This document shows positions 1,781 to 20,500 of a stretch of DNA of 64,000 nucleotides, piece after piece. Numbering within the stretch: position 1 is the first letter of the stretch; each line of letters begins with the position of its first letter. Below the pieces are notes generated by a model. That model searched no databases. It was not told the origin of the DNA and worked only from the letters and a program-made list of their open reading frames with translations. The translations under genes and the position numbers were made by a program. The stretch is from Pokkaliibacter plantistimulans (GTDB lineage Bacteria > Pseudomonadota > Gammaproteobacteria > Pseudomonadales > Balneatricaceae), in assembly GCF_003194385.1 (NCBI RefSeq), contig NZ_LAPT01000034.1, positions 1 to 64,000 on the forward strand, read 5' to 3'.

Positions 1781-3232
1781 TCAGGCTGGGGTACGCAGGT
1801 GCCAGTCGGTCACTTGCTGGAACTGGTGGGCTACATTCAGCAGACGGGCTTCGTCGAAGAAGTTACCGATCAGCTGCAGACCCACCGGCAGGTGGCCGAT
1901 GAAACCAGCGGGCACAGACATACCGGGCAGACCCGCGAGGTTCAGGGACAGGGTGAAAATATCTTCCATATACATGGCGACAGGGTCATTAGTGTTTTCA
2001 CCGATCCTGAAAGCAGGGGTTGGCGTCACCGGTGCCATGATGACATCCACATCATTGAGGGCTGCGATGTAATCCTGCTGGATCAGACGACGTATCTTCT
2101 GTGCCTTCAGGTAGTAAGCATCGTAATAGCCAGCGGACAGGGCGTAGGTGCCGACCATGATGCGGCGTTTGACCTCTTCACCGAAGGCCTCACCACGGCT
2201 GCGCTTGTACAGATCCATCAGATCCTTGGGGTTGTCGCAGCGATAGCCGTAACGAACACCGTCAAAGCGGGACAGGTTGGAAGAGGCTTCGGCCGGGGCA
2301 ATGATGTAGTAGGCCGGAATCGACAGGCCAACGTTGGTCAGGCTGATTTCCTTCACTTCAGCGCCCAGCTTGCGGTATTCGTCAATGGCAGCCTGCAGCA
2401 CGCTTGCCATCTGCCCATCCAGATCAGCGTTGAAGAACTCCTTCGGCAGACCAATCTTCAGGCCGCTCAGCGGGGCATTGAGACTGGTGCTGTAGTCGGG
2501 CACGTCGCGCTGGGCGCTGGTGGAGTCTTTCTGGTCAAAGCCTGCCATGGCCTGCAGCAGCAGTGCGCAGTCTTCTGCGGTGCGCGCCATAGGACCGCCT
2601 TGATCCAGACTGGAGGCATAGGCGACCATGCCCCAGCGCGACACGCGGCCATAGGTGGGGCGCAGACCGGTAATACCGCAGAATGCAGCGGGCTGGCGAA
2701 TGGAGCCGCCGGTATCAGTGCCGGTGGTGGCGGGTACCAGACCAGCGGCAACGGCGGCGGCTGAGCCACCCGAAGATCCGCCGGGAACGCGTTCCGCATC
2801 CCAGGGGTTTTTTACCGCACCATAGAAGGAGTTCTCGTTGGAGGAACCCATGGCGAACTCATCACAGTTCGTTTTACCCAGCATGACCATGCCTTCGGCA
2901 GCACACTTCTCCACCACGGTGGCATTGTAGGGAGCGATAAAGTTATCGAGCATTTTCGAGCCGCAGGAGGTGCGCACGCCTTCGGTGCAGAAAATGTCTT
3001 TGTGAGCGATGGGCAGACCGGTCAGCAGACCGGCATTGCCTGCCGCGCGGCGCTCGTCAGCCGCTTTCGCCTGTTGCAGCGCGATCTCTTCGGTCACGCT
3101 GATAAAGGAGTTGGTGGTGTCTGCCTTGATACGGCCCAGATAATCCTGTGCCAGTTCAGTGGCAGAGCACTGGCCGTCCTGAAGTTGTTTGGCCAGCCCG
3201 GCCAGAGTGTGTTGTTGCATGGGAAAAGGCAT
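1781..3232 (-). CDS. gatA: Asp/Glu-tRNA(Asn/Gln) amidotransferase subunit A
   Basis: The 483-residue amidase-signature protein is the glutaminase/amidase subunit that releases ammonia from glutamine for GatB. The Lys-cisSer-Ser triad is visible as K78 (in AHKDIFC), S153 (in GGSSGGS) and S177 (in [10 protein letters not shown]). The protein reads through to the usual end, [10 protein letters not shown]. The start at 3232 gives MPFPMQQH. An internal ATG at 3220 ([10 protein letters not shown]) aligns better with the N-terminus of relatives and has an AGGA 11 nt upstream, so it is a credible alternative. Middle gene of gatCAB, about 96 bp after gatC. Confidence 0.97.
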
Positions 3233-3328
3233 CCTGTGCTGTCGATCAGCGGAATATGTAGAAGAAACAGACCAGAGATCGGGCTCCGGTGATTTCAGCT
3301 GTCGTTAAGGTTGAAAAAGTGCCAGGAA

Positions 3329-3616
3329 TTACTCGATGACCTTGGGCACCAGGAACAGTCCGCGCTCCTGCGCAGGGGCATTAGCCTGCAGCTTGTCGCG
3401 CTGATTTTCCTCGGTTACGGCGTCAGGACGCAGACGTTGAACGGCGTCCAGGGGGTTGGCCAATGGCTCGACATTGTCGGTATTCACCGCCTGCATCTGA
3501 TCGACCAGAGCGAGAATATTGGAAAGATTGCGCACGTATCCCTCAACACTGGACTCTTCCAGTTGCAGCCGGGCCAGGTGTGCAATTTTTTCTACGTCGG
3601 ATTGCTGAAGTGCCAT
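3329..3616 (-). CDS. gatC: Asp/Glu-tRNA(Asn/Gln) amidotransferase subunit C
   Basis: The 95-residue GatC is the small subunit that wraps around and stabilises GatA-GatB. The N-terminus ([15 protein letters not shown]) and the RPDAVTE segment near residue 67 are classic for the family, and the length is typical. First gene of gatCAB; its upstream region (3617-4026) is shared with divergent mreB and contains a large composite inverted repeat about 70-115 bp before this start. Confidence 0.96.
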
Positions 3617-5064
<1,448 letters not shown>

Positions 5065-5087
5065 GTCAGGGATAACAGAGAACCACT

Positions 5088-6149
5088 GTGCGTTCGATTT
5101 TCCGTAGTTCTTCTTCCAAGTGGTGGTTCTGGGTTTTGGTGTGCCTGTCGCTGTCTCTGCTGGTGGCTGATCGCTATTGGTCGGGGATGTCGCAGGTGCG
5201 CTCCTGGCTCACCGTCTTTACCGCTCCTCTTCAGTGGGTGGTCGATGTCCCTAATCAGGTCTGGAGTGCTGCTGACCGAACGCTCGCCAACCGCGAGCAG
5301 TTGCAGCAGGACAATGATCGTCTGCGTACTCAGGTGCTGTTTCTTGAGCGCCAGGTGCAGAAAATGGCATCTACCACAGCAGAAAACATTCGCCTGCGTG
5401 AATTGCTCAACGCTTCCCAGCGTCTGGATGAGCGTGTTCTGTTGGCAGACCTAATCGGCGTCAATCCTGACCCTTTCCAGCATCAGATCGTCCTCAACAA
5501 AGGCAGTAACGATAACGTCTATGTAGGGCAGGCTGTTCTGGATGCTGGCGGCATCATGGGGCAGGTGGTAGAGGTCGGACCCTACACCAGTCGGGTGCTG
5601 CTGATCACTGACGCGGCTCATGCCATTCCGGTGCAGGTCAACCGCAACGGTCTGCGTGCCATTGCCTTTGGCGAAGGTGTGCCGGGTGTGCTGAGCCTTG
5701 AGCATGTACCTGACACTGCAGATATTGCCAAGGGTGACTTGCTGATCAGCTCCGGGCTGGGAGGGCGCTTCCCTTATGGTTATCCGGTCGGGGAGGTGAC
5801 TGAAGTGATTCATGATCCGGGTGAGCCTTTTGCGCTGGTTAAAGTCAAACCCAGTGCACAGCTTGACCGCAGCCGCCATGTATTGTTGTTGTTCCCGTCG
5901 CCACAGCCGCTTGTTGATCCTGCTGCTGTACCCGCTGAAGGCGCCGATGCTCAGGCTGGCTCCGTTCCGGCTCCTGCCAGCAATGCAGCTGCCAACGCAG
6001 GTACGAGTACGCCGCAAAAGCCGGCCGCTACGGCTGCCCCTGCACCCTCACCGGATGCAAGAAAACAAGACAACAAGCCCAAGCCTGCTGCAGGGAATGC
6101 GCACACCAGTGCTGCCACCCCTGCTGCTAAAAAGGTAGCGACCCCATGA
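5088..6149 (+). CDS. mreC: Rod-shape-determining protein MreC
   Basis: A 353-residue bitopic inner-membrane protein that links MreB to the periplasmic PBP2/RodA synthase. It has a short cytoplasmic N-terminus, one membrane helix at about residues 12-30, a coiled coil at about 60-105 and a beta-rich periplasmic domain to about 270. The last ~80 residues (from about 273) are a low-complexity Ala/Pro tail with scattered Lys; such tails occur in other gammaproteobacterial MreC proteins but vary in length. It overlaps mreD by 4 bp, implying translational coupling. Confidence 0.96.
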   Translation: MRSIFRSSSSKWWFWVLVCLSLSLLVADRYWSGMSQVRSWLTVFTAPLQWVVDVPNQVWSAADRTLANREQLQQDNDRLRTQVLFLERQVQKMASTTAENIRLRELLNASQRLDERVLLADLIGVNPDPFQHQIVLNKGSNDNVYVGQAVLDAGGIMGQVVEVGPYTSRVLLITDAAHAIPVQVNRNGLRAIAFGEGVPGVLSLEHVPDTADIAKGDLLISSGLGGRFPYGYPVGEVTEVIHDPGEPFALVKVKPSAQLDRSRHVLLLFPSPQPLVDPAAVPAEGADAQAGSVPAPASNAAANAGTSTPQKPAATAAPAPSPDARKQDNKPKPAAGNAHTSAATPAAKKVATP

Positions 6150-6628
6150 GGCAGGGCCCCAAGGGTGGCTGGCTGATTCTGCTGTCGTTGTTGTTGGCCT
6201 TCATGCTCAGTGCTATTCCACTACCAGAAATGCTGCAGTGGGGGCGGCCCGAATGGGTTGCCATGGCGCTGATCTATTGGGTCATGGCATTGCCAGAGCG
6301 TGTGGGCGTCAAGACCGCATGGATATGTGGATTACTTCTGGATCTGCTGCAGTCCAGCCCGCTCGGGGCCAACGCCATTGGGCTGACGGTGGTGGCGTAT
6401 CTCACCACTTTGCTGCATCAGCGCCTGCGTAACTTCCCGCTGATTCAGCAATCTTTCGTGGTGCTCATGCTGATTGGCATTTTGCAAATGGTGCGGCACT
6501 GGCTGCAGCAGTGGCAGGGTGGTGCCGCAGAGTCATTGATCTTTATGCTGCCCAGTCTGATCAGCGCTTTGCTATGGCCCTGGTGGTTTGTCGTGCACAG
6601 GGATCTGCGCCGCATTTTTGTCAGCTGA
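6146..6628 (+). CDS. mreD: Rod-shape-determining protein MreD
   Basis: A 160-residue polytopic inner-membrane protein with about five hydrophobic helices, partner of MreC in the elongasome. Start ATGAGGCAG overlaps the mreC stop (ATGA junction). Features of the family include the LDLLQSSPLGANAIGLT segment near residues 68-84. Length is normal. Identification rests on hydrophobic profile, that motif and position between mreC and maf. Confidence 0.94.
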   Translation: MRQGPKGGWLILLSLLLAFMLSAIPLPEMLQWGRPEWVAMALIYWVMALPERVGVKTAWICGLLLDLLQSSPLGANAIGLTVVAYLTTLLHQRLRNFPLIQQSFVVLMLIGILQMVRHWLQQWQGGAAESLIFMLPSLISALLWPWWFVVHRDLRRIFVS

Positions 6629-6688
6629 TCCGATCACATTGCTTGGTGTTGCTCTCCCGTTTTCCCTTCTTGTTTCAGGTAGCCTCTC

Positions 6689-7273
6689 ATGAAATTGATT
6701 CTGGCCTCCCAGTCTCCACGTCGTCGTGAACTGCTAACCCAGATAGGTGCAGAGTTCACCGTGCAGGTGGCCGATATTGATGAAACTCCTCTGGTTGATG
6801 AAGACCCCGCCGCTTATGTGGAACGTCTGGCTATTGAAAAGGCACAGGCTGTAGCCCGGTTGCAGGGTGATGATGTCGCGGTGCTTGGATCTGACACCAG
6901 TGTTGTTCTGGACGGCGAGATTCTTGGCAAACCGCTGGATCAGGCCGACGCAGTCCGTACGCTGGTTAAACTGGGTGGGCGCGAGCATCAGGTGCTGACG
7001 GCAATCGCCATCGTGACAGCGGGGCAGGTATTCAGTCGTGTTATTACTACCGATGTCAGCATGATGCCAGTCTCAGCCGCACAGGCCGAGGCGTACTGGA
7101 TGACGGGTGAGCCTGCCGACAAAGCCGGGAGCTATGGTATTCAGGGCAAAGGTGGCGTCCTGGTGGCGGGGGTGCGTGGTAGCTATTCAGCGGTGGTAGG
7201 ACTGCCTTTGCATGAGACTGCGTTGCTGCTAGCTGAAGCCGGCGTCCCTACCTGGCTGACTCAGGCGACCTGA
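6689..7273 (+). CDS. maf: Maf-family nucleotide pyrophosphatase (YhdE type)
   Basis: A 194-residue Maf/Ham1-fold enzyme that hydrolyses nucleoside triphosphates such as dTTP/UTP to the monophosphate, acting in house-cleaning or septum control. N-terminal [12 protein letters not shown] and the internal [16 protein letters not shown] and [12 protein letters not shown] motifs are diagnostic. The placement after mreBCD is the classic arrangement. A terminator-like hairpin follows at 7300. Confidence 0.95.
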
Positions 7274-7299
7274 TCTCAAACGGGATGACGTTGCGGTAC

Positions 7300-7331
7300 A
7301 AAGGCCGGTGTGAATCCCCGGCCTTTGTGTT
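7300..7331 (+). terminator. Rho-independent terminator after maf
   Basis: AAAGGCCGG (7300-7308) pairs with CCGGCCTTT (7318-7326) across a 9-nt loop, followed by GTGTTTT. It closes the mreBCD-maf unit. The A-rich left arm lets it also work for the convergent hydroxylase gene that ends at 7348. Confidence 0.8.
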
Positions 7332-7347
7332 TTCTGCGGTAGTCGTA

Positions 7348-8028
7348 TCAGACCTCGGCCCATTCGCGCAGCAGGTTGTGATATACGCCGGTCAGCTGAA
7401 TCAGGGCAGGGTGCTCCGGGGTAGCCTGAGTGAGCTGCTGGATCGACATGTCCAGATCAAACAGCAGGCTGCGGCGGCTGTCCTGACGAATCATGCTTTG
7501 CAGCCAGAAGAACGACGCCAGACGCGCTCCCTGGGTGACGGCTGTGACGTGATGCAGGCTGGTTGAAGGGTAGAGAATCATGTGCCCGGCTGGCAGTTTT
7601 ACCTGATGGGTACCGTAAGTATCCTCCACTACCAGCTCGCCGCCTTCGTACTCATCGGGATCGGAGAGAAACAGCGTACAGGACAGGTCTGTACGGATGC
7701 GCTCCGGCGTGCCGGGAATACGGCGAATGGCATTGTCGACATGGGTGCCAAAGGACTGCCCACCCTGATAGCAGTTAAACAGCGGTGGGAAGATCTTGCC
7801 TGGCAGGGCTGCTGCCATGAACAGCAAATTGGTGGCCAGAGCGGTAGTAATCATTTCCCCCATGTAGCGTGCAGCGTCACTGTTTTCGGCCAGTTGCAGA
7901 TTGTGCTTGGCTTTGGCCGACTGGTGACCCGCAGTGACCTTGCCGTCAATCCAGGGAGCGTCCTGCATGATCTTGCGGCATTCGTTGACCTGATCCTGGG
8001 TCAGTACAGCGGGAATGGGAAGCAACAT
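7348..8028 (-). CDS. piuC: Fe(II)/2-oxoglutarate-dependent PKHD-type hydroxylase (PiuC/YbiX)
   Basis: A 226-residue prolyl-4-hydroxylase-fold dioxygenase. Iron ligands H96-x-D98 (in GTHVDNAIR) and the distal H159 (in [13 protein letters not shown]) are present, with R169 (in GARLAS) placed to bind 2-oxoglutarate. PiuC/YbiX enzymes are regularly encoded next to Fiu/PiuA-type siderophore receptors and are iron-repressed; their substrate is not established. Here it lies downstream of such a receptor on the same strand, separated by a terminator-like hairpin (8053-8075). An AGGA lies 11 nt before the start. Confidence 0.92.
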
Positions 8029-8052
8029 GGTACGTCATATCCTGAATATAAA

Positions 8053-8075
8053 AGGGCGGCTGAGTGAACCGCCCT
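8053..8075 (-). terminator. Hairpin between siderophore receptor and piuC
   Basis: AGGGCGG (8053-8059) pairs with CCGCCCT (8069-8075) across a 9-nt loop. Read on the minus strand it is followed by TTTATATT. It fits a terminator or attenuator for the receptor gene, so piuC may be expressed by partial read-through. Confidence 0.65.
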
Positions 8076-8090
8076 GTGGTGAGGCATGGG

Positions 8091-10241
8091 TCAGAAAGAT
8101 ACATCTGCCGTCAGGGTGGCGTAACGCCCGGTGCCGGGCACAAAGTGTCCGCCACCTACGCTGTCGATGTAGTCTTCGTCTGTGATGTTATGCAGATTCA
8201 GACGCAGGGTAACATCAGGATTGACGGCATAGGAGACGGTCGCGTCATACAGGGTGTAGGACGGGGCAATACGCAGGTTGGCGGTACTGTTGTAGCGATC
8301 ATCCACATACTGCGCACCTGCGCCGACCTTGATGCCGTAGCCTACGTCGTAGTCACTCCACAGGCTGAAGGAGTTACGAGGAGTATTGCTCAGCTCATGG
8401 CCGACGATGTCCTCGTCTGCGGAACTGACCACTTTGCTCTTCATGTAGGTGTAGCTGGCGATCACTTGCCACTGAGGCGTGATCTGGCCTACGGCACCCA
8501 GCTCCAGGCCCTGCACACGCTGCTTGCCATTCATGACGTACAGGGTGCTGTCATCGGGGTCGGTTTCCCGTGCGTTGGTCTTCTCAGTGCGGAAGACCGC
8601 GGCGCTCAACAGCAGTTTGCTGTCCAGCAGTTCCCACTTGGTGCCCAGCTCATAGCTGCGGTTCTTTTCTGGCTCCAGATCCTTGGTGGCATCACTTAAC
8701 GCCAGACCTTCGGCTGAAGGATTGAACGAGTTGCCGTAGGACAGGTAAATGCTGCCGTTTTCCCGTGGCTTGTAATTCACGCCAGCCTGATAGCTCAGGG
8801 TGGTTTCGTTATTGCTATAGGTGCCGAGCGGTACAGTACGAGAGGCCGTTTTCACGGTGTAGTCAGTGTCCGAATGATCCAGACGCAAACCGCCATTGAG
8901 TTGCCACTGCGGATTCAGATGCAGGGTGTCGTTGACGTACAGCGATTGAGTATTGGTCACCCCGACGTTGGCTGGCGTGCGTTCCGGCACGGCGCTGTAG
9001 CTGTCGTAAGGATTGGGATTGTACAGATCCGTCAACGCGGAACTGCTGCTGACGTTACGGGTGATGGTTTCTTCTTTCTCGCGTGTCAGCTGGATACCGG
9101 TCACCAGATCGTGTTTCACCTGGCCGGTGGCAAAGTGCAGGGTCAGATCGGTCTGATTATCAAAAATTGAGTCGACCTGATCGCGGCCTTTGAGCTCTCG
9201 CTTGATATCGGTGCTGCCATCAGCGTTGAAGCGTGGTGTGCTGATGATGGAATCACGATCACTGCGGGTATAGGTGAACTGGTTGCGCAGGGTGACGTTG
9301 TCATTGAAGTCATGTTCGGCCGCAACTTTCAGGCTGTCACTGACGATGTCTTCATAGTCGCGCTCGACCAGACCATAAAAGTTGTCGAAGTTGACCGGTG
9401 GGGCCTTGTCGGCATAGTCAGCCAGTGCGGTATTGGTCGTCGGAACCCAGGGAATGCCGTAGTCCGGCATGTTGTCTTCCTGAATGTGCTGATAGCTGAC
9501 GGTAACGCGGGTATCGGTTTCCAGGCCAAAGGCAACGGAGGGCGCGACGCCCCAGCGCGAGTTGTAGACTTCATTCCGGCCAGCAGTATCGGCATCGTAA
9601 CCCATCACATTGAGACGGATAGCACTGTTACTGCCAATGGTCTGGTTGGTATCAATGGTGGCACGTTTGTACTCGTCTGTGCCCAGACCAACGCTGGCAG
9701 TGGTGAAGCTGTCCAGGCGCGGCGCCTTGGAAACCAGATTGATGGAGCCGCCTGTCGAGCCGCGTCCGCTCATGGATGATGACGGGCCCTTGGCCACTTC
9801 AACCTGCTCCAGATTGAAAGAGTCTCGGGTGTAGGTACCCAGATCGCGTACGCCATCCACGTAGATATCAGTGCGGGCATTGAAACCACGAATGCTCATG
9901 TTGTCGCCAGCAGGTGTTCCCCCTTCACCTGCCTGAATGCTGATGCCGGTGACGTTGCGCAGCACATCGCGCAGCGTGGTGGCGCCCTGTTCCTTGATCA
10001 CTTCCTCAGGAATCACGGTAATGGTTTTGCCGGTATCCAGCAGCGGCTGGGTGTACTTGGGAGAAGCCGCCTTCTCTACTTTGTAACCTTCTTCAACCTG
10101 ATTGCCTTCGATACTGACCACAGGCAGTTGCAGACTGTTGTCATCGGCATGAGCCAGCAGGGTTGATGAGGTGAGAGCCAATCCCACTGCTGTGGTCAGC
10201 AGGGTTTTGTGCTGAGTAGAAGTGATACCGCCGGATGCCAT
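8091..10241 (-). CDS. TonB-dependent catecholate-siderophore receptor (Fiu/PiuA type)
   Basis: A 716-residue outer-membrane receptor. The N-terminal signal peptide ends near residue 32 (LLAHADD). A plug domain (about 60-180) holds IKEQGATTLRDVLRNVTGI and MSIRGFNARTDIYVDGVRD, and the 22-strand barrel ends in the aromatic residue F716, as required for BAM assembly. It would take up Fe(III)-siderophores using TonB/ExbBD energy supplied from elsewhere. A strong AGGAG lies 7 nt before the ATG. The piuC neighbour supports the Fiu/PiuA subgroup. Upstream is a promoter overlapped by a Fur-like box, predicting iron repression. The substrate is inferred, not proven. Confidence 0.93.
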   Translation of the reverse strand: MASGGITSTQHKTLLTTAVGLALTSSTLLAHADDNSLQLPVVSIEGNQVEEGYKVEKAASPKYTQPLLDTGKTITVIPEEVIKEQGATTLRDVLRNVTGISIQAGEGGTPAGDNMSIRGFNARTDIYVDGVRDLGTYTRDSFNLEQVEVAKGPSSSMSGRGSTGGSINLVSKAPRLDSFTTASVGLGTDEYKRATIDTNQTIGSNSAIRLNVMGYDADTAGRNEVYNSRWGVAPSVAFGLETDTRVTVSYQHIQEDNMPDYGIPWVPTTNTALADYADKAPPVNFDNFYGLVERDYEDIVSDSLKVAAEHDFNDNVTLRNQFTYTRSDRDSIISTPRFNADGSTDIKRELKGRDQVDSIFDNQTDLTLHFATGQVKHDLVTGIQLTREKEETITRNVSSSSALTDLYNPNPYDSYSAVPERTPANVGVTNTQSLYVNDTLHLNPQWQLNGGLRLDHSDTDYTVKTASRTVPLGTYSNNETTLSYQAGVNYKPRENGSIYLSYGNSFNPSAEGLALSDATKDLEPEKNRSYELGTKWELLDSKLLLSAAVFRTEKTNARETDPDDSTLYVMNGKQRVQGLELGAVGQITPQWQVIASYTYMKSKVVSSADEDIVGHELSNTPRNSFSLWSDYDVGYGIKVGAGAQYVDDRYNSTANLRIAPSYTLYDATVSYAVNPDVTLRLNLHNITDEDYIDSVGGGHFVPGTGRYATLTADVSF

Positions 10242-10353
10242 TCTGTGACTCCTGTTTCAACTACAGAATACTTGTGGGTTAAAGGAGGCTTTCACGCCAG
10301 GTGCGAGGGCTGGTGAGAAGGTGCGACGAATCTACTCTGTGAAATATAAAAAT

Positions 10354-10409
10354 ACAAATGATAATTTTTCGTATTTAAATTTATATTTGTCTTTGATGTT
10401 AACTGACAA
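10354..10409 (-). promoter_or_regulatory. Promoter of the siderophore receptor with Fur-like box
   Basis: On the minus strand, -35 TTGTCA (10409-10404) and -10 TATAAA (10385-10380) are spaced by 18 bp. Just downstream, covering the expected start site, 10354-10372 matches the 19-bp Fur consensus at 11 of 19 positions, with an uninterrupted AATGATAAT core. The region is strongly A/T-rich against its surroundings. The Fur assignment is moderate on its own but fits the gene. Confidence 0.55.
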
Positions 10410-10471
10410 AACTGAAAAAGCAGGCGGATTATTGACTGAGGGAGGCTGGGTAACATTTCTTAACTATTGTT

Positions 10472-10490
10472 ACTACGTATAATCATTTTC
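10472..10490 (+). promoter_or_regulatory. Candidate Fur box and -10 for the PepSY-DUF2271-DUF4198 unit
   Basis: 13 of 19 positions match the GATAATGATAATCATTATC consensus, including an unbroken ATAATCATT. A perfect -10 hexamer TATAAT (10478-10483) lies inside the box, so bound Fur would block this promoter. The -35 is poor. The leader to the GTG start at 10674 would be about 185 nt with no convincing gene in it. Confidence 0.55.
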
Positions 10491-10673
10491 ATTCGTGTTT
10501 CTGTCGAGTTTTTTGCAGCGTTGGCTATACTGGCGCGCCATCGGTACGTTGCAGCGATGCCGGGCTATCACGACATAGCGCCTGCAACCTGCAACCTGCA
10601 GCAGAACAGCCCTACGGGCTGCAGACAAGATCAAACAGAAGCAGGCTGACCTGCTCATGATGAGAGTGATGAC

Positions 10674-11279
10674 GTGCTCAAAGGCAAGGTGTTGCGCGCG
10701 GTGAAGTCCGTGCATTGGATCAGTTCGGCGCTGGCATTGGCCTGTCTGCTGCTGTTCAGCGTCACGGGGATCACCCTCAACCATCCTGACTGGTTTGATG
10801 CGGACCCTACACAGGCAGAGCAGCACTTGCAGTTACCAGAGGAGCTTCAACAGCAGCTGATGAAGGCAGTGGCTGCAGGGCAGTGGATCAGTGTCCAGCC
10901 TGCATTGCTGCAATGGTTGTCTGGCCAGGGGCTGGCTGGCACTCCGCAGCGTCTGGAGGCGGTGGATAACGAGCTGCATCTGGATTACCAGCGCCCGGGT
11001 GGCTATCGCCAGATCAGCATCTATCTCGATGAAGGGGTGGTGGAGGCCGAAGAGGAAAGCCGTGGGTTGGTGGCAATTCTTAATGATCTGCACAAGGGAC
11101 GTCATGCGGGCGCCTGGTGGAGTGCGCTGATCGATCTCACGGCAGTGATCATTCTGGTGTTTTCCGTCAGTGGCCTGGTGCTGCTGTATCACTTTGCCAG
11201 TCAGCGCGGGTCAACATGGCCGCTGGTGACCGTGGGCTGCGCCATTCCGTTGCTGATATATCTGGTGGCTGTGCCGTAA
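10674..11279 (+). CDS. PepSY-associated membrane protein, putative b-haem electron carrier
   Basis: A 201-residue inner-membrane protein of the PepSY-associated TM type. Helices at about 13-35, 151-173 and 182-200, and a periplasmic PepSY-like segment at about 38-148. The basic N-terminus (MLKGKVLRAVK) predicts N-in topology. Histidines sit at both ends of the first two helices: H14 and H173 on the cytoplasmic side, H37 and H140/H144 on the periplasmic side. This is the arrangement expected for two bis-His b haems, as in PepSY siderophore reductases such as FoxB. It starts with GTG; no in-frame ATG lies close upstream. The stop is 59 bp before the DUF2271 gene. The family call is fairly sure; the redox role is inferred. 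Confidence 0.75.
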   Translation: MLKGKVLRAVKSVHWISSALALACLLLFSVTGITLNHPDWFDADPTQAEQHLQLPEELQQQLMKAVAAGQWISVQPALLQWLSGQGLAGTPQRLEAVDNELHLDYQRPGGYRQISIYLDEGVVEAEEESRGLVAILNDLHKGRHAGAWWSALIDLTAVIILVFSVSGLVLLYHFASQRGSTWPLVTVGCAIPLLIYLVAVP

Positions 11280-11338
11280 TCATCGTTTTCCCCCGGCGGC
11301 TGACATGGCCGTGCGGTGTCTATTTGCTGGAGATAAGC

Positions 11339-11836
11339 ATGAAGTACTTCGTTGCTGCGCCTTTGCTGCTGGCTGCGGTTAGCAGTCAGGCCGCTGACCT
11401 GCGCGTTGAGTTTGTCGTACCTGCAATGAAGGTTGCGGAATATCACCGGCCCTATGTGGCGGTATGGATCGAAAATGATCAGCGTCAGGCGGTGAACACC
11501 CTGGCGGTGTGGCATGAACAGGGCAAGAAAGACAAGTGGCTGAAAGATCTCAGCCAGTGGTGGCGGCGTGTCGGGCGTGATCTTGACGGCCCCATTGATG
11601 GTGTTTCCGGTGCCACCCGCTTGCCCGGTACCTACCAGCTGCAGTGGCAGGGTATTGATCAGCAGGGTCAGGCACTGCCAGCTGGCCAATATACGCTGTC
11701 GGTGGAGGTGGTGCGTGAAGTGGGGGACCGGGAGTTACAGCGCGTCAGCTTTGACTGGCCACCCGCTGAGGCACATACCGAGCAGCTGCAGGGCAAGACG
11801 GAGCTCGGTCAGGTGACGCTGCAGCTGACACCCTGA
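11339..11836 (+). CDS. DUF2271 periplasmic protein with a predicted FMN-attachment motif
   Basis: A 165-residue exported protein of unknown function with signal peptide MKYFVAAPLLLAAVSSQAA. The ATG at 11339 is preceded by GGAG; the frame is open further upstream, but that part overlaps the PepSY gene and lacks a signal peptide. It has a beta-sandwich-like pattern (RPYVAVWIEN, GTYQLQWQGID, GQYTLSVEVVREVG). Residues 87-93 read DGVSGAT, which matches the D-x-x-(S/T)-G-A-T motif used by ApbE to attach FMN covalently to NqrC/RnfG; T93 would be the acceptor. No apbE gene is in the window. It lies between a PepSY-TM and a DUF4198 gene, a grouping I recall from other genomes. Confidence 0.8.
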   Translation: MKYFVAAPLLLAAVSSQAADLRVEFVVPAMKVAEYHRPYVAVWIENDQRQAVNTLAVWHEQGKKDKWLKDLSQWWRRVGRDLDGPIDGVSGATRLPGTYQLQWQGIDQQGQALPAGQYTLSVEVVREVGDRELQRVSFDWPPAEAHTEQLQGKTELGQVTLQLTP

Positions 11837-11907
11837 TCAGGCTGCGTGCTGTGATTCATCAACGGATTTACCCATTCCTAGCTAGTACATCTTTGGGACG
11901 GATACGC

Positions 11908-12792
11908 ATGAAAAAGACGTTTTTGGTTTCGACGCTGGCCCTGACTATGGGGCTGGTGACGATGCAGGCTCAGGCTCACAGCCGCTGGATTCTGCCATTG
12001 CAGCCTATTGTCAGTGGCCATGAAAGTGAATGGGTCTCTTTCGATGTGTCGGCGTCGAACACCCTTTTTCAGGCGGATAAGCCAGCCCGGCTGGATGGCA
12101 TGGTGGCGGTGATGCCTGACGGCAGTCAGGGCGTTGCGGTGGAAGGCTACACCGATAAGCGACGCAGCGTATTCAGCTACGAGCTGACCCAACCCGGTAC
12201 CTACAAGTTTGAGCAGACCAACGAAGGTTACATGGTGATGCGCGAGCGTCCGCAGGGCGCAGAGCAACCCAAAGCGGAAGGAGGCAAGCCACAGGGCGAG
12301 GGCAAGCCCGGCATGGGACCACAGGGGCCGGGGCGTGGTATGCGTGCTGACACGCTGGAAGCCCTGCTGGCGCAGCTGCCGGATGACGGCAAAGCCAAGC
12401 ACATCGTCCATTCACTGTCGCGGGTGGAGACCTTCGTTACCCGCGGTAAGCCGACCGATGCGGCACTTAAGCCTACCAATAAAGGTATTGAGATGGTGCC
12501 CCTGACCCATCCGGCAGACCTGTTCACGGGCGAGCCAGCTACCTTCCAGTTTCTGCTGAATGGTAAGCCAGCCGCGGATCTGGCGGTTGAACTGACGCCG
12601 GGAGGGACGGCCTACCGCAATGAACGCCTGACCCAGTCACTGAAAACGGACGGCGAAGGCAAGATCAAGGTAGAGTGGCCGATGGCCGGACCCTATCTGG
12701 TAGAAGTGGAAGATGAAGTCAAACTGTCAGAAGGGAAGGTCAATAGCGAGCGCTATGGTTATTTCGCCACGCTGGTGGTGCAGCCGCAGTAA
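11908..12792 (+). CDS. DUF4198 periplasmic protein, putative metal-binding partner
   Basis: A 294-residue exported protein. The start at 11908 gives a standard signal peptide (MKKTFLVSTLALTMGLVTMQ...) cleaved at AQA|HSRW, so the mature protein would begin with histidine (H24); a second His is H38. DUF4198 proteins are often encoded by nickel, cobalt or iron uptake loci. Residues ~113-146 form a Pro/Gly/Lys-rich linker dividing an N-terminal beta domain from a C-terminal one that ends GYFATLVVQPQ. Last gene of the PepSY-DUF2271-DUF4198 unit, followed by a strong terminator. The metal role is inferred from family context and the exposed N-terminal His. Confidence 0.8.
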   Translation: MKKTFLVSTLALTMGLVTMQAQAHSRWILPLQPIVSGHESEWVSFDVSASNTLFQADKPARLDGMVAVMPDGSQGVAVEGYTDKRRSVFSYELTQPGTYKFEQTNEGYMVMRERPQGAEQPKAEGGKPQGEGKPGMGPQGPGRGMRADTLEALLAQLPDDGKAKHIVHSLSRVETFVTRGKPTDAALKPTNKGIEMVPLTHPADLFTGEPATFQFLLNGKPAADLAVELTPGGTAYRNERLTQSLKTDGEGKIKVEWPMAGPYLVEVEDEVKLSEGKVNSERYGYFATLVVQPQ

Positions 12793-12914
12793 GGCAGTCA
12801 GGGAGGTCTTCACCCTCTGCCCGGTGTCGGCGGCACGCGGGTGAAGCGACCTTCTGACGGAGTATCTGCAGTTAACAGACGGCATTTGCTCAGGTCGTGA
12901 ATAGGTTTGAGGAG

Positions 12915-12945
12915 TGAGCGGGCCCGTAAGCCCGCTCATTTGATT
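12915..12945. terminator. Bidirectional terminator between DUF4198 and acyl-CoA ligase genes
   Basis: TGAGCGGGC (12915-12923) pairs perfectly with GCCCGCTCA (12930-12938) across CCGTAA, followed by TTTGATT. It sits between two convergent genes and probably serves both. Confidence 0.8.
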
Positions 12946-14581
12946 AATGGCCAAACAGCTCGCGAATCTGTTTCTTGTTGATCTTGCCGACGCTGGTTTT
13001 GGGGATGTCAGCAACAAACTCGAAGTGATCGGGTATGCCCCACTTGCTCAGTTTGCCCTGGGCGACAAATGTCTGAAGATGGCTGCGCAAGGCGGCGTCA
13101 TCCAGTGTGTCATCGCTTTTCACCACCAGTGCCAGTGGGCGTTCACCCCACTTGCTGTCAGCGACCCCCACCACTGCCACGGCGGCGACGCCTGTGTGCT
13201 GACTGATAAAGTTCTCCAGTTCAAGTGAAGACAGCCATTCTCCTCCGGTCTTGATGACATCCTTCAGACGATCCTTGATCTCGATAAAACCATCGGCATG
13301 GATGGAGGCTACGTCGCCCGTATGCAGCCAGCCGTTGGCCCACAACTCTTCGCTTTTGCTTTCTTCCTTGTAGTAGCCCTGAGTCAGCCAGGGGCAGTGC
13401 ACCACAATCTCCCCCAGCTGTTCTCCATCGTGCTCAAGCAGATCGCCGATGGGGCTGGCTATCTGCAGATCGACCAGATTGACTGGCTTGCCTGTCAGAA
13501 TGCGGTAATCCAGTTGCTGCTCCAGCGGTAACTCACGCTGCTCCTTGGTGAGATGGGTAACGGTCAGCAGGGGGCAGGTTTCTGACATGCCGTAGGCGGA
13601 GCTGATATCGATACCGCGCTCCATCGCCGCTCTGGCCAGTCCGCGAGGCAGCGCACTGCCACCGATCAATACTTTCCAGCCCTTGAAGTCGATGTCTTTG
13701 CAGCGCTCGCAACTCAGCAGCATCTGCAGGATGGTAGGTACGCAGTGGGATACAGTGACCTGATGTCTGACCACCAGATCCACCAGCATGTTGGGTTCAT
13801 AGCGGCCAGGATAGATCTGTTTGCAGTTCAGTACGGTAGCGGCATAGGGCGTGCCCCAGGCATGGACATGGAACATCGGCGTAATCGGCATGTACACCGA
13901 TTCCGAGCGCAACAGGTCAATGCCGTTGTACGCGCCCAGCGTACCCACCATATTGAGCGTGTGCAGCACCAGTTGCCGATGGCTGAAGAACACCCCTTTG
14001 GGGTTGCCGGTCGTGCCGGTGGTATAGAACGTGGTAGCGATGGCATCTTCGGAAAAATCGGGGAACTCGGTCAGCGGCTCGGCTGCTGCCAGCAGCTGTT
14101 CGTATTCGCCAATAAACGCAACGTCACCCTGATAGTCACCGCTGTCACTCAGGCGAATACATGCCTGCACCATCGGCAAGCGGGGCAGCAGCGCCTGGGC
14201 GATGGGAATAAAGTCATCATGCACCAGCACAAAACGGTCTTCGGCATGAGCCATGGTGTAGTGAATCTGCTCAGGAGAGAGGCGGATATTGACGTGGTGC
14301 AGTACGGCGCCCAGCATCGGTACGGCAAAATAGCACTCCAGATACCGATGGCTGTCCCAGTCCATCACTGCCACGGTATCGCCTTCTTTTACTCCGGCGG
14401 CACGTAGCACTGCTGCCAGTTGCTGGACCCGCAGTCGGAACTGGCGATAGCTGAAACTCTGCTGATCACGATAGACGATCTGGTTGTCTGGCTGGTAACG
14501 TCCTGCGGACAGGAATAACTGTTTGATCAGTAATGGAAAATGTTGCGCGGCCTGGGCAGGTGGAATCAGTTTTACACCCAT
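12944..14581 (-). CDS. Fatty-acid--CoA ligase (AMP-forming, AlkK-like)
   Basis: A 545-residue ANL-superfamily adenylating enzyme. P-loop [10 protein letters not shown] at 187-196; [12 protein letters not shown] (A5), [10 protein letters not shown] (A7/A8) and [13 protein letters not shown] follow in order, and the C-terminal catalytic Lys is in [13 protein letters not shown]. It would activate medium- or long-chain fatty acids to acyl-CoA in the cytoplasm. Overall it resembles the AlkK / medium-chain group; chain length cannot be deduced from sequence. It is divergent from an AraC-type regulator at 14806, a pairing that suggests control by that protein. Confidence 0.9.
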
Positions 14582-14805
14582 GGTGTGGTCCTCTTGTTGT
14601 TATGGTGTGGGTGAGGTAGTCGCTGCAAGGATTCTTTCTCGGACCAAGGTCGACTAACAAGTTGCTTACCGCTGCGGATAATAACTTGTCGCATAAAGAC
14701 AATAGCTCATGAATAATGAGCTCGCGAGATGTACTCAGGTGATTGCAGACAACAGCACATGCTGGGCAATGCAGGGAGATGATCCATGACGGCTGAGAGA
14801 AGACC

Positions 14806-15879
14806 ATGACGGCCACGGTGCTGGCAGGATGGCTCGGTGTGATCGAGCAGGCGGCGAGTCGCTATGGGCTCGACTTTGCCAGCCTGTTGCAACGCAGTGG
14901 TATTGATCCTGAATTACTGCAGCAAGGCACGGCGCGAGTGCCGCAGCGCAAGATCAGTGATCTGATGCAGCTGGCCATGGTGATGAGCAATGATCGTGGT
15001 TTTGCCCTGACAGTGGCCCGGCAAGTGCGCCCCCCTTCCTGGTACAGCCTTGGTTACGCGATCTGGGCCAGCGATACCCTGTTGCAGGGTTGTCAGCGAT
15101 TGCAGCACTGTGCGGCATTGTTTGCCGATGCCTTCCATGTGCAACTGATTGAGCATGACGGTGAACTGCAGGTTGTATTACGGCAGGCACCTCTGCTGCG
15201 TGACCCTTTGCTGATGCTGGACTGGGAAGTCTTTGCTGCCACCATAGTGCTGACCATCCGGCATCTGCATCCGGCCAAGCCGCAACCACTGCGTGTTGTT
15301 CTGCCTGGGCCGGAGCCTGAAATGACGGCCCCCTTCAAGCGTCTGTTTGGTGAGGCGCTGGCGTGGCAGGGGGAGGAGGTGGTATTAACGTTCTCTGCGA
15401 GCCTGATGAAGGAGTGGCTGCCCGGGCGGAACCCTGAATTGGCCCGACAACATGATGAGCTGTCGCAGCGCTATCTGCAGGCCATGAACCACCGTAGTTT
15501 TAGCCGACAGGTGTATGAGCAGCTGTTGTCACGCGACTCGCTGCGTGAGGTCGAAGCGGCACAGGTGGCAGAGGCGCTACACATGAACCTGCGCACCTTT
15601 CAGCGGCGCCTGCAGGATGAGGAATGCTGCTTTCGTGAGTTACTGGATCAGGCCCGCCACGCGCTGTGCTGTCGGTATCTGAACAATGAACAGTTAAGCA
15701 TGGGCGAAATCAGCTATCTGCTGGGGTTCGCCAATGTGAGTAATCTGTATCGCGCCTTCAGGCGCTGGCGTCAGGAAGCACCGGGCGAATATCGCCAGCG
15801 CCGGCGCCATGATTCTCTTGCCTGTTTGCAGACAGGAGGCAGGTCGGCACAAGCCCTTATACCTGTGACTTTTAGATAG
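14806..15879 (+). CDS. AraC-family transcriptional regulator
   Basis: A 357-residue regulator. The N-terminal half (about 15-200) fits the arabinose-binding-like domain of the OruR/ORF-type AraC subgroup. The C-terminal ~100 residues contain two helix-turn-helices: VAEALHMNLRTFQRRLQ and MGEISYLLGFANVSNLYRAFRRW. The second carries the conserved GF-SN-RAF signature. It is separated by 224 bp from the divergent acyl-CoA ligase, so it may sense a fatty acid or its CoA ester; that ligand is a guess. No obvious direct-repeat operator was identified. Confidence 0.9.
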   Translation: MTATVLAGWLGVIEQAASRYGLDFASLLQRSGIDPELLQQGTARVPQRKISDLMQLAMVMSNDRGFALTVARQVRPPSWYSLGYAIWASDTLLQGCQRLQHCAALFADAFHVQLIEHDGELQVVLRQAPLLRDPLLMLDWEVFAATIVLTIRHLHPAKPQPLRVVLPGPEPEMTAPFKRLFGEALAWQGEEVVLTFSASLMKEWLPGRNPELARQHDELSQRYLQAMNHRSFSRQVYEQLLSRDSLREVEAAQVAEALHMNLRTFQRRLQDEECCFRELLDQARHALCCRYLNNEQLSMGEISYLLGFANVSNLYRAFRRWRQEAPGEYRQRRRHDSLACLQTGGRSAQALIPVTFR

Positions 15880-16003
15880 TCTGCCAAACAGCTGCGAAGC
15901 CGTAACATCATGTTGCCACCAGGTGGGGTTGTCATAACCCATCAGGCATAATAATCAACCCCGGTCCAACGTCGGCCGGGATCTGGAAGAGCTTGAGACC
16001 CGA

Positions 16004-17470
16004 ATGAGCGAAGAGATTCTAATCAACTTCACACCGATGGAAACCCGCGTTGCCGTGGTTGAGAACGGTATGCTGCAAGAGGTTTATGTCGAGCGTGCAG
16101 CCAAGCTGGGTATTGTCGGCAACATTTATAAAGGCAAGGTCGTCAGAGTACTGCCGGGCATGCAGGCTGCCTTCATTGATATTGGCCTGGATCGTGCTGC
16201 CTTTATACATGCTGCTGATATCCGCAGTGCCAAGGAAGATGAGAACAAATCCATCAGCTACCTGCTGCGCGAAGGGCAATCCCTGGTGGTACAGGTCACC
16301 AAGGATCCCATCGGCAGTAAAGGTGCGCGGCTGACCACCCATATCTCCATCCCCTCGCGTTATCTGGTGTATATGCCTTACGCCGAACATGTCGGCATCT
16401 CGCAGCGTATCGAAGATGAAGTCGAGCGTGAGCGCCTGAAACAGACCGTGCAGAGTCAACTGGACCAGTTGCACGAAGAGGGCGAGGTCAATGTAGGGGG
16501 CTTTATCGTCCGCACCGTTGCCGAAGGTGCACGGGAGAAGGATATTCACAAGGATTTGCTGTACCTGCGCCGGTTGTGGCACTCCCTGCAGGAGTCCATG
16601 GACAAGGCCGCACCCGCCACGGTGATCTATGAAGACCTGCCGCTGTATATGCGCATCCTGCGTGACCTCGCGACACCCGAGGTAGAAAAGATTCGCATTG
16701 ACTCACGTGAAACCTTCCACAAGGCACAGGAGTTTGTTGGCAAGCTGATCCCTGAGATTCTTGAGCGTATTGAGTACTATCCGGGCGAGCGGCCGATTTT
16801 CGATCTCTACAATGTTGAAGATGAGATTCAGCGTGCTCTGGGCCGCAAAGTGCAACTCAAATCGGGCGGCTATCTGATTTTCGATCAGACTGAAGCCATG
16901 ACCACGGTCGACGTCAATACCGGTGCTTACGTCGGGCACAAGACACTGGAAGAAACCATCTTCAAGACCAATCTGGAAGCCGCCACTGCCATTGGTCGGC
17001 AGCTCCGGTTGCGTAATCTGGGTGGCATCATCATTCTCGACTTTATTGATATGGAAGATGTGGAGCATCAGCGCCAGGTGTTACGAACCCTGGAGAAGGT
17101 GCTGGAGAAAGATCACGTCAAATGCAAGGTGACGGGGGTTTCTGAGCTGGGTCTGGTGGAAATGACCCGCAAGCGTACCCGCGAAAGTCTGGAGCAGGTG
17201 CTGTGTGAGCCATGCCCTATCTGCCAGGGACGGGGATCATTGAAGACCCCTGAAACGGTCTGCTACGAGATCTTCCGTGACATTCTGCGTCAGCATCGGG
17301 CATACAACACCGATTCCTATCTGGTACTGGCCAGCCAGTCAGTGGTCGACAAACTGATGGATGAGGAGTCGGATCGCGTGGCGGAACTGGAAACCTTTAT
17401 CTCCAAAACCATTCGTTTTCAGGTCGAGCCCATGTACACCACTGAGCAGTTCGATGTCGTTTTGCGTTAA
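16004..17470 (+). CDS. rng: Ribonuclease G
   Basis: A 488-residue RNase E/G-family endoribonuclease that matures the 16S rRNA 5' end and turns over mRNAs. S1 domain at about 38-128 (VGNIYKGKVVRVLPGMQAAF); DNase-I-like catalytic aspartates D303 (VDVNTGAY) and D346 (IILDFIDM); Zn-link C404PIC407. It lacks the long C-terminal scaffold of RNase E, as expected. Length equals E. coli RNase G within one residue. It heads rng-yhdP-nit; in Pseudomonas it usually directly follows maf, but here an 8.7-kb accessory segment intervenes. Confidence 0.97.
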   Translation: MSEEILINFTPMETRVAVVENGMLQEVYVERAAKLGIVGNIYKGKVVRVLPGMQAAFIDIGLDRAAFIHAADIRSAKEDENKSISYLLREGQSLVVQVTKDPIGSKGARLTTHISIPSRYLVYMPYAEHVGISQRIEDEVERERLKQTVQSQLDQLHEEGEVNVGGFIVRTVAEGAREKDIHKDLLYLRRLWHSLQESMDKAAPATVIYEDLPLYMRILRDLATPEVEKIRIDSRETFHKAQEFVGKLIPEILERIEYYPGERPIFDLYNVEDEIQRALGRKVQLKSGGYLIFDQTEAMTTVDVNTGAYVGHKTLEETIFKTNLEAATAIGRQLRLRNLGGIIILDFIDMEDVEHQRQVLRTLEKVLEKDHVKCKVTGVSELGLVEMTRKRTRESLEQVLCEPCPICQGRGSLKTPETVCYEIFRDILRQHRAYNTDSYLVLASQSVVDKLMDEESDRVAELETFISKTIRFQVEPMYTTEQFDVVLR

Positions 17471-17519
17471 GCCCAGAGTATCAGGTCGTACCCTCAAGGA
17501 CGGTCAGGAGTAAGGTTGG

Positions 17520-20500
17520 ATGCCGTTGTTGTTAAGGTTGGGACGATTCTTTCTGCGACTGCTGACCATGTTGTCGATCATTTGGGTGGCATTGCTCACC
17601 CTGATCCTGCTGGTTTGGCAAACCTTGCCCTGGTGGTCGGCGCCGGTATTGAACTGGGGCCGGCAGCATTTCGCCATTCCGCTGTATTTTGATGCTACTC
17701 AGACGCAGTGGAACGGTAGCCGTATCGCTCTGACCCTGAGAAATGTGCGTTGGGGAGAGCAGCTGAATATCCCCGAGTTGCAGCTGGAAATGGATGCACT
17801 GAACAGTGTCTGGCGCTTCTATCCGGTGATGACCCGTATTCAGGCCCACGATATCGAGATACAGGCTGCTGTGCCGGAACAGTCCGGGGATAGTCAGCCT
17901 CAGTGGCCTTCCTGGCTGATCACGCTGCCGGTGGATGTCAGTGGCAAGGTGGCATTGAGCAAGGGCGCTATACGGCAGCAGGTGCAATTCAGTCTTTATA
18001 ACGCACCTGCTGCAGCATCCCATTTTAACTACGGTGGTCGTCTGCAAGTGGCGACGGAAGGCGTGGCTGCTCCGCTTGAGTTGCGCTGGCAAGGCAATAT
18101 CTGGGAAGGGCAGTTATGGCTGAATATGCCCAACCAGTCCTATCGCACCGCACTGCAGCCTTGGTTGCCTCAGGGGCTGCAGCTTGGTGCGCTGGATCTC
18201 GAAGGGCAGCTGTGGGCTGACTGGCGTGGCACCCGTATCCAGACGGTCAACGGCAACCTGTCTCTGCCTGATCTGGCACTCTTTACAGCGGGCTCCTCCT
18301 GGCAACTGTCACAGCTGCGGACGCAGGTGGTCTGGCGCAAGGCCGGGAATGGCTGGTGGGCTGGCTTGCAGCAGCTTAGCTGGGCTGATCAGCAAGGTAA
18401 ATCGCTGGCACCCATGAATATCAGCATCCAGCACTTACCCTGGCAAACGCGACTGTGGCTGGATGATCTGGACCTGCACAGGCTGTGGCCCTGGCTGATG
18501 GAGCAGCATGTATCCTCCGGCTTGTGGGAAAACCGTCTGCTGCCTCTGTATGGGCGCGGGCATGTCAAAAATCTGTATTTCACTCTGGATCAGGCAAATG
18601 TCGAACAGGCCAGCCAGCGCTATGGTGCGGTGCAGCCTGCTTCACTCTGGACGTTACGGGCTGATCTGCAGCAAGTCAGCGTCAATGATGTTGATGGCAT
18701 TCCCTCGCTCATTGGCGTGACCGGAGCAGTGGAGGCGGATGCTTATGGTGGTAAGGTCAGCCTGCACGGGCAGCCCCTGACGCTGGCCTTTCCACAGCTG
18801 TTCAGCAACGGCTGGGAGTTCAACAGCGCCGCTGGGGTGATTGGCTGGCATCTCACGGATAAGGATGCCTGGGTGACCAGCAATACCCTGAGCCTGGATC
18901 GACCGGGTTGGCAGGCCAAGGGGCGATTCAGCCTGAAGTTACCCTTGCATGAGGATGACAATGATCAGCGCTTTACGCTGATGATCGGTGTGAAAGACAG
19001 TGATGCCGGGCAGGGGCTGGAGTTTGTGCCCGATCACACGGTATCACCCTCCCTGATGAACTGGTTGCGGCAAGCCATGCCCGATGGCTATCTCCGCAGT
19101 GGTGCTTTTCTTTATGACGGCAGTGTCAGTAAGAGTGCCGGTTGGAACGAGCGTACCGTGCAGCTTTATCTTGATCTGCAGAACGCTCAGCTGAATTTCT
19201 CACCGGAATGGCCTGCCTTGCATGATGCCAATGTCCAGTTACTGACCCATGATGAATCCGTCACCGCCTTCGCCCCTCAGGCTCAACTGCAGAATCTGGA
19301 TCTGAGTAACGTGCAGGTGGCATGGCCAAAAGCACCAGATGATCATCGCTTGTCGGTGGCGACGGAAGTCAACGCTGCTTTACCTGATGTGCAGGAGCTG
19401 TTGTTCGCTGCGCCGTTTGCAGGCTCTCTGACGGCACTGAAAGACTGGCAGATGACCGGCTCGCTGAAGGGCCAGGTAGTATTGCAGATCCCGCTGGCCA
19501 AAAATGATCCCGCGCTCGACATCAAGGTGGATACCCGTCTTGGCAGTGCTCAGTTGGTGCAGACCAAAGAGCAGTTGCAGGTCGACGACATTCACGGTGA
19601 TTTGCATTACGACAGTAGCAAAGGACTGTTTACCGAGATGCCGTTGCAAGGCAGCTGGCGTGGCCAGAGTGTACAGGCCGAGCTAGTCCCTGCGGCAAGC
19701 AGCAAAGACTCCAAAGGGGCGGCAGCGACAACGCTGAAGGTAACAGGACACAGTGCCCTGAGTGATCTTGCCCAGTGGCAACAGCTCTCTTTGCCTGACT
19801 GGATTACCGGCGATCTGGACTGGGTTGCCATGCGCCATTTCTGCCAGGACGATACGTCCTATTGCCAGACCCTGCATATCAACAGTGATTTGCAGGGTGT
19901 AAGTGTTGACTTACCAGCTCCACTTGGTAAGGACGCAAATGCTGCAGTCCCGCTGCAACTGGATATCGAAGCCCAAAAGGAAACCCGGGTCACTGTTGAG
20001 TACGGTGACTTGCTGCATGCCAAGGCCAGATTTCTGGGTAACCAGGCTAAAGCCGTGGCTGTCAGTGTCGGTGGTGAGGCGCCTCAGTGGCCGAAAAGCG
20101 CTGCAATTGAAGTGGCCGCGAAGTTTGCTGAGTTGAATCCAACAGACTGGATCGCTGCAGTGAGTTCACTCTCTTCCACCGTCAGTAATAATGCGTCGAC
20201 GGTTGGTGCCGCATCTGCCGGAGAGAAAGGTGATGTGCCCGATGGCAAGATTAACCTACCGATTTCAGCTCGCATAGTGACCGATAATCTCCACTGGCTG
20301 GGGCGTGACTGGGGAGCAGCGACTGCTAGTTATGATCCCAAAGGGGTGCTGTTCAGCGGCGACAGTCTGGATGGACGAGTCAGCTATGATGCAGGTCGTC
20401 GCCATTTGGATGTCAATCTCAGTCGCCTGTTGATTCCTGAAGTGGATGACAAGAGTAAGCAGAGCGATGGCGAGCAGGATAAGTTTGAGGACCCCCTGGC

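Follow-up and report, generated by a model that had tools for sequence, protein, structure and literature searches.

DUF2271 proteins are described as substrates of ApbE, with flavinylation shown for one protein of the family by Méheust et al. (2021, eLife; PMC8238504). The DUF2271 protein of Amantichitinum ursilacus (WP_053936890.1) is flavinylated by its own ApbE, a modification abolished by a Thr-to-Ala substitution, and the [S/T]GA[S/T] motif is conserved in 282 flavinylation-associated DUF2271 proteins (PMC8238504). The same article describes 3220 PepSY-like clusters, of which 2833 contain DUF2271 and 1500 contain DUF4198, ties the PepSY/DUF2271/DUF4198 clusters to iron, and argues for iron reduction. 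The DUF2271 fold was modelled in a later paper (PMC11334425). In Caulobacter, the PepSY protein HiuB is required for siderophore use (PMC13001220), the DUF2271/DUF4198/ApbE operon is a member of the Fur regulon (PMC3751524), and cells with insertions in the cluster are less fit when EDTA is present (PMC12004947). The only DUF2271/DUF4198 pairs reported for Alteromonas adjoin TonB receptors that respond to iron (PMC7190382).

We analysed a 64,000-nucleotide stretch of DNA from Pokkaliibacter plantistimulans (hereafter the window), part of a 5.79-Mb genome (215 contigs), where an exported DUF2271 protein had been predicted to carry an ApbE-type flavin attachment motif. Such a reading is already in print for the DUF2271 family and is well supported. 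Since flavin attachment was shown in 2021 for a relative, the window gene is a good new instance of an electron carrier already linked to iron, and not a discovery, and its original description as an otherwise functionless DUF protein is outdated (PMC8238504). We consider it very probable that the window protein carries a covalent flavin.

The DUF2271 gene of the window and its neighbours

The features of the locus are as follows.

7348..8028, - strand: 2-oxoglutarate/Fe(II) hydroxylase (PF13640 and PF18331), which we take to be of the PiuC/YbiX type
8091..10241, - strand: TonB-dependent siderophore-type receptor (PF00593/PF07715)
10242..10673, no strand: divergent intergenic region, with a Fur-like 19-mer at 10472-10490 (13/19)
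10674..11279, + strand: PepSY-TM membrane protein, predicted transmembrane haem carrier (PF16357, 1.9e-58; PF03929, 3.5e-10)
11339..11836, + strand: DUF2271 gene, predicted FMN carrier, probably exported (N-terminus by eye); translation of 165 aa, PF10029 at E 1e-51
11597..11617, + strand: DGVSGAT codons, residues 87-93 of the translation, with predicted FMN acceptor Thr93
11908..12792, + strand: DUF4198 protein, exported (PF10670, 7.3e-47); predicted mature N-terminus His, codon 11977-11979, cleavage site by eye

In a Pfam profile search, the window DUF2271 protein matches PF10029 with 174.7 bits against a curated cut-off of 27.3, has FlgD_ig as a minor match, and gives no match to FMN_bind (PF04205) at E 0.001. 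The translation does read DGVSGAT at residues 87-93, as had been claimed; its SGAT portion (residues 90-93) aligns with the DUF2271 family site, and the codon of Thr93 occupies 11615-11617 (+). The N-terminus, MKYFVAAPLLLAAVSSQA/ADL, is hydrophobic and signal-peptide-like by our by-eye reading of the translation. By the published description, the A. ursilacus protein has in common with it the Pfam family and a Thr acceptor in [S/T]GA[S/T]; there the cognate apbE was used and the flavin shown, whereas here the sole apbE lies elsewhere in the genome and the flavin is predicted (PMC8238504).

The PepSY-TM gene said to adjoin DUF2271 is indeed its upstream neighbour, and the PepSY-TM, DUF2271 and DUF4198 genes form a run on the + strand, with the TonB receptor and the PiuC-type hydroxylase divergent on the - strand and an AMP-binding enzyme on the opposite strand at the downstream end of the run. 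The order PepSY (PF16357), DUF2271, DUF4198 together with a TonB receptor is the same as in the PepSY-like flavinylation clusters, but neither an apbE nor a reductase gene was seen in the window cluster. The Caulobacter cluster CCNA_03155-03159 likewise has PepSY, DUF2271 and DUF4198 in common with it, but contains in addition an ApbE and a sulfite-reductase-type flavoprotein (PMC3751524), and the Caulobacter TonB/hydroxylase pair cciT/cciO is located away from that cluster (PMC12004947). Among the 68 DUF2271 neighbourhoods of a phylum-wide sample (the window included), 62 have PepSY, 53 DUF4198, 46 ApbE, 41 a TonB receptor and 20 PiuC.

A structure model of the DUF2271 protein, built on a three-sequence alignment, has a mean pLDDT of 72.3 and consists mostly of strands, seven or eight in number, together with a single helix. 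The helix corresponds to the conserved WLKD..WWRR..GR stretch and is followed by the motif loop, where most of the motif has pLDDT below 50 (mature-chain residues 60-74). A Foldseek search of the model against the PDB returned nothing at E ≤0.001, the weak matches including FlgD, protease and C2 domains; thus, the fold is uninformative on flavin. A scan of viral contigs found no further DUF2271 relatives.

Conservation of the motif in the DUF2271 family

Seven residues might resemble an ApbE site by chance, in which case DUF2271 would be a flavin-free Ig-like binding domain, in line with its FlgD_ig similarity. On their own the residues are indeed little proof, since their frequency in the genome is at chance level: the DNA-level pattern D-x-[VLIMF]-[S/T-like]-G-A-T has 10 matches in the genome, compared with 9 in a reversed control. 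Four of the 10 are DUF2271, NqrB, NqrC and RnfG; the other six, named by reading, are a DNA polymerase B-like, a DUF1537-like and a phosphatase-like protein (in its C-terminal tail) and three frames of at most 99 codons. What exceeds chance is the conservation of the motif at the same place across the DUF2271 family.

For this comparison we took about 7 kb on either side of 67 other over-cut-off DUF2271 matches from a 398-genome phylum sample and 23 DUF2271 loci from the window's own family, which together with the window gave 91 domains, all of them counted; eight of the fetched loci were shorter than 14 kb, and 10 sub-cut-off matches were left out. The flavin acceptor position holds Thr 68 times and Ser 23 times, so that one or the other is found in 91/91 domains. 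The motif Asp is kept in 84/91 and otherwise replaced by N, S or H, position 5 is Gly in 69/91, and position 6 is Ala in 74, Pro in 16 and Glu in one, so that the complete published pattern Dxx[ST]GA[ST] is present in 50/91. The prediction that the motif would be conserved among homologues therefore holds for the acceptor hydroxyl residue and largely for the Asp, while strict invariance of D and T was too strict an expectation, because D can be replaced by N, S or H and T by S. This pattern fits the reviewed mutational data, according to which flavinylation is lost without the Thr, loss of the Asp has a minor effect, and Gly-to-Ala or Ala-to-Val changes reduce flavinylation to about half (PMC12052999). 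In four loci (L108, L109, L111 and L112) ApbE and DUF2271 are fused, and the fusion of L108 has the most degenerate motif, HGIARET.

Co-occurrence with ApbE and the enzyme of the genome

In the phylum sample, ApbE is present in 290/398 genomes, DUF2271 above the cut-off in 65/398 and FMN_bind in 251/398. All 65 DUF2271 genomes contain ApbE, versus 225/333 of the others (Fisher 2.6e-10, the 398 genomes being treated as independent). Removing the classical ApbE clients makes the FMN_bind-free subset a sharper test: of the 147 genomes that have no FMN_bind, 33/33 with DUF2271 contain ApbE, versus 19/114 lacking DUF2271 (9.8e-20, genomes again treated as independent). These counts take related genomes as independent although kinship is present; the 33 genomes span 12 family codes and 23 genera. 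Chance resemblance is thus made extremely improbable by the acceptor in 91/91 domains, by this co-occurrence and by the published flavinylation of a homologue (PMC8238504), and we rejected a chance motif on family conservation and ApbE co-occurrence. The family-site conservation and the apbE in the genome also lend support to the ApbE-type attachment motif first proposed for the window protein; the third check proposed with it, co-expression with ApbE, has its published counterpart in the A. ursilacus protein (PMC8238504).

The apbE that the prediction called for does exist in the genome, as a single lipoprotein-type enzyme. It is located on another contig than the window (G000:C157:411-1484), beside a fumarase-like gene, and its N-terminus is lipobox-like. 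It aligns to a solved ApbE (FAD:protein FMN transferase) at 2.4e-60, with matching TSG, SH-DP and D-W segments. The catalytic Ser, His and Asp are named for ApbE-type enzymes in the literature (PMC12052999); their assignment to these three segments is our own and is putative. No apbE was found at 3001-20000 of the window, leaving the gene cluster without one, and none was seen in any of the 25 DUF2271 loci of the same family (window included) within a range of about 7 kb, four of these loci being shortened by contig ends. All 60 genomes of the same-family sample have ApbE and FMN_bind, and 22 have DUF2271; since ApbE is there with or without DUF2271, co-occurrence within the family is uninformative, and the pattern of no local apbE with ApbE in the genome is consistent with a shared enzyme but is no test of it.

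By reading of the surrounding frames, the two FMN_bind genes of the genome sit in RNF and NQR operons. NqrC and RnfG (FMN_bind, PF04205) have the same ApbE motif and acceptor residue as the window DUF2271 protein, but belong to a different family, and they probably have their ApbE in common with it. As the genome has a single ApbE along with RNF and NQR, and the motifs are alike (RnfG DQFTGAT, NqrB DGFSGAT, NqrC DGLSGAT, DUF2271 DGVSGAT), one ApbE probably serves all four targets. The opposite reading is that this enzyme is tuned to NQR/RNF and the window DUF2271 protein stays unmodified, an apbE of the cluster having been lost or never having been there. The location of the sole ApbE on another contig, the presence of NQR and RNF, and the apbE found nearby in 46/68 domains of the phylum sample would all agree with it, but we hold it to be very unlikely, as the window protein has the full canonical motif, nearly identical to those of the genome's own NqrB and NqrC, and seven residues are the minimal motif recognised by ApbE (PMC12052999). 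Moreover, DUF2271 has an apbE at a distance of no more than about 7 kb in 33/33 DUF2271 genomes without FMN_bind, but in just 11 of the 32 with FMN_bind; in the other 21 a local apbE is missing, and yet the acceptor is Thr/Ser throughout the 91 domains. The window gene extends support for the 2021 flavin finding to a genome without apbE in the cluster, and is a clear example of a single ApbE that apparently has several targets, namely NQR, RNF and DUF2271.

A separate observation concerns position 6 of the motif, where 16/91 domains have Pro rather than Ala next to the flavin acceptor (L062, L064, L065, L067, L070, L071 and ten others), as GPT in 12, RPT in two, SPT in one and QPT in one. Pro occurs in 16/46 domains with a local apbE versus 0/45 without (Fisher 6e-6), and the genomes with it are without FMN_bind in 15/15 cases, which are not phylogenetically independent. 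A quickly built tree of the 91 domains, with poor resolution, shows four changes in local apbE and eight in Pro. As just three independent pairs remain on the starred branches of this tree, the link between Pro and local apbE is not statistically established. The tie between Pro and the absence of FMN_bind may be new, and we regard the pattern as a lead pointing to motif drift with a dedicated ApbE.

A proposed route of electrons to iron and the DUF4198 protein

Taken as a whole, we find it likely that the window DUF2271 protein carries electrons in the periplasm, as a small protein bearing FMN and acting in iron uptake. After export, the genome's own lipoprotein ApbE, encoded elsewhere, would move FMN from FAD to Thr93, which would lie in the loop after the conserved WLKDLxxWWRxxGR helix. 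The PepSY-TM protein would carry electrons across the inner membrane, probably via haem on His14 and His140; both histidines are kept in 81/81 aligned proteins, which fits the predicted role as an electron carrier in the membrane with bound haem, for which FoxB (PMC11334425) and HiuB (PMC13001220) offer a comparison. From haem the electrons would reach the FMN of DUF2271 and then ferric iron bound to a siderophore or chelator, and this ferric substrate would enter via the divergently encoded TonB receptor. The solved chains nearest to that receptor carry iron-transport or siderophore receptor names, the nearest being 5fok (E 3.8e-175) and the third Fiu 6bpm (E 8.9e-129). No NAD(P)H-binding domain was found in the PepSY protein or in seven other window proteins scanned, and none of these eight looks like a cytosolic electron donor. 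Nor was a Fur box above background found, since the 13/19 match at 10472 is one of eight places in the window scoring at least 13; the scan used a single Fur consensus.

Iron reduction by the FMN-bearing DUF2271 protein is, on balance, the more plausible use of the electrons. Alternatively, a flavinylated DUF2271 may pass electrons on for a purpose other than iron, to another metal complex or to oxidised periplasmic targets. Several observations would suit such a role: in the one DUF4198 protein studied, Ni has a stronger stabilising effect than Zn, Co or Cu (PMC12537917, 2025); the Caulobacter DUF2271 and DUF4198 genes have ratios of 0.50 and 0.41, respectively, in the table of a zur-mutant study (PMC4176598); FeoB_C was not found in the genome; and by reading, a metal ABC-transporter binding-protein-like gene comes after the cluster in two Vibrionaceae loci. 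However, a siderophore-type TonB receptor and a PiuC-type hydroxylase adjoin the window cluster, the Caulobacter genes show Fur regulon membership and the EDTA phenotype (PMC3751524, PMC12004947), and the neighbours in Alteromonas are iron-responsive (PMC7190382), and we therefore regard a non-iron role as rather unlikely. The two Vibrionaceae loci are L004 and L005 (Photobacterium damselae and Vibrio europaeus), where the gene follows the PepSY-DUF2271-DUF4198 run at about 8600-10200. As for metal import in this genome, rated 100% complete, FeoB_C has no match, and a ferrous importer of the usual kind was therefore not seen; one Nramp-family transporter is present.

Within the iron reading, the DUF4198 protein may take the released divalent metal by its N-terminal histidine, a tentative assignment. 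An Ala-His pair stands at the expected end of the signal peptide in 64/64 aligned DUF4198 proteins (the window protein and 63 relatives), from which the mature protein is predicted to start with His, and a second His (precursor position 201) is kept in 61/64. This apparent signature of an N-terminal-histidine metal site in the DUF4198 proteins of such clusters may be a new observation. An N-terminal His is reported to be 79% conserved in DUF4198 proteins, one of which was solved with nickel (PMC12537917). This protein, IsDUF4198 (PDB 9GCB), is of the same Pfam family as the window DUF4198 protein and has the same N-terminal His that is predicted for the latter, but its chain was not returned by our DUF4198 sequence searches, so the ligands could not be mapped onto 9GCB and the likeness stays at the level of family and N-terminal His. 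The main text on IsDUF4198 makes no mention of PepSY, DUF2271 or flavin (PMC12537917), and in the part of the DUF2271/DUF4198 literature that was covered we met no paper coupling the flavin step with a metal acceptor of the N-terminal-His type, which is a weak absence.

More speculatively, the locus may act as a machine that reduces and then catches the metal, PepSY haem passing electrons to the DUF2271 flavin for reduction of Fe(III), and the N-terminal-His site of DUF4198 catching Fe(II) for a divalent-metal importer, perhaps Nramp given that FeoB_C was not found; in genomes without FMN_bind clients, the DUF2271 site would moreover be free for Pro, as if in a dedicated ApbE-substrate pair. 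We consider this combined scheme doubtful. Should the link to DUF4198 hold, a protein at present described as binding nickel would acquire a second function, and the steps that lead from the ferric siderophore to the divalent metal would be complete for a cluster type that is widespread. The structure model of the DUF4198 protein has a mean pLDDT of 46.5. PDB chains of the 9mhi/9mhk series bear the name phosphoribosylglycinamide formyltransferase and give matches to the DUF4198 profile at about 1e-8 over about 170 positions; either they seem to be mislabelled or they are remotely related to DUF4198.
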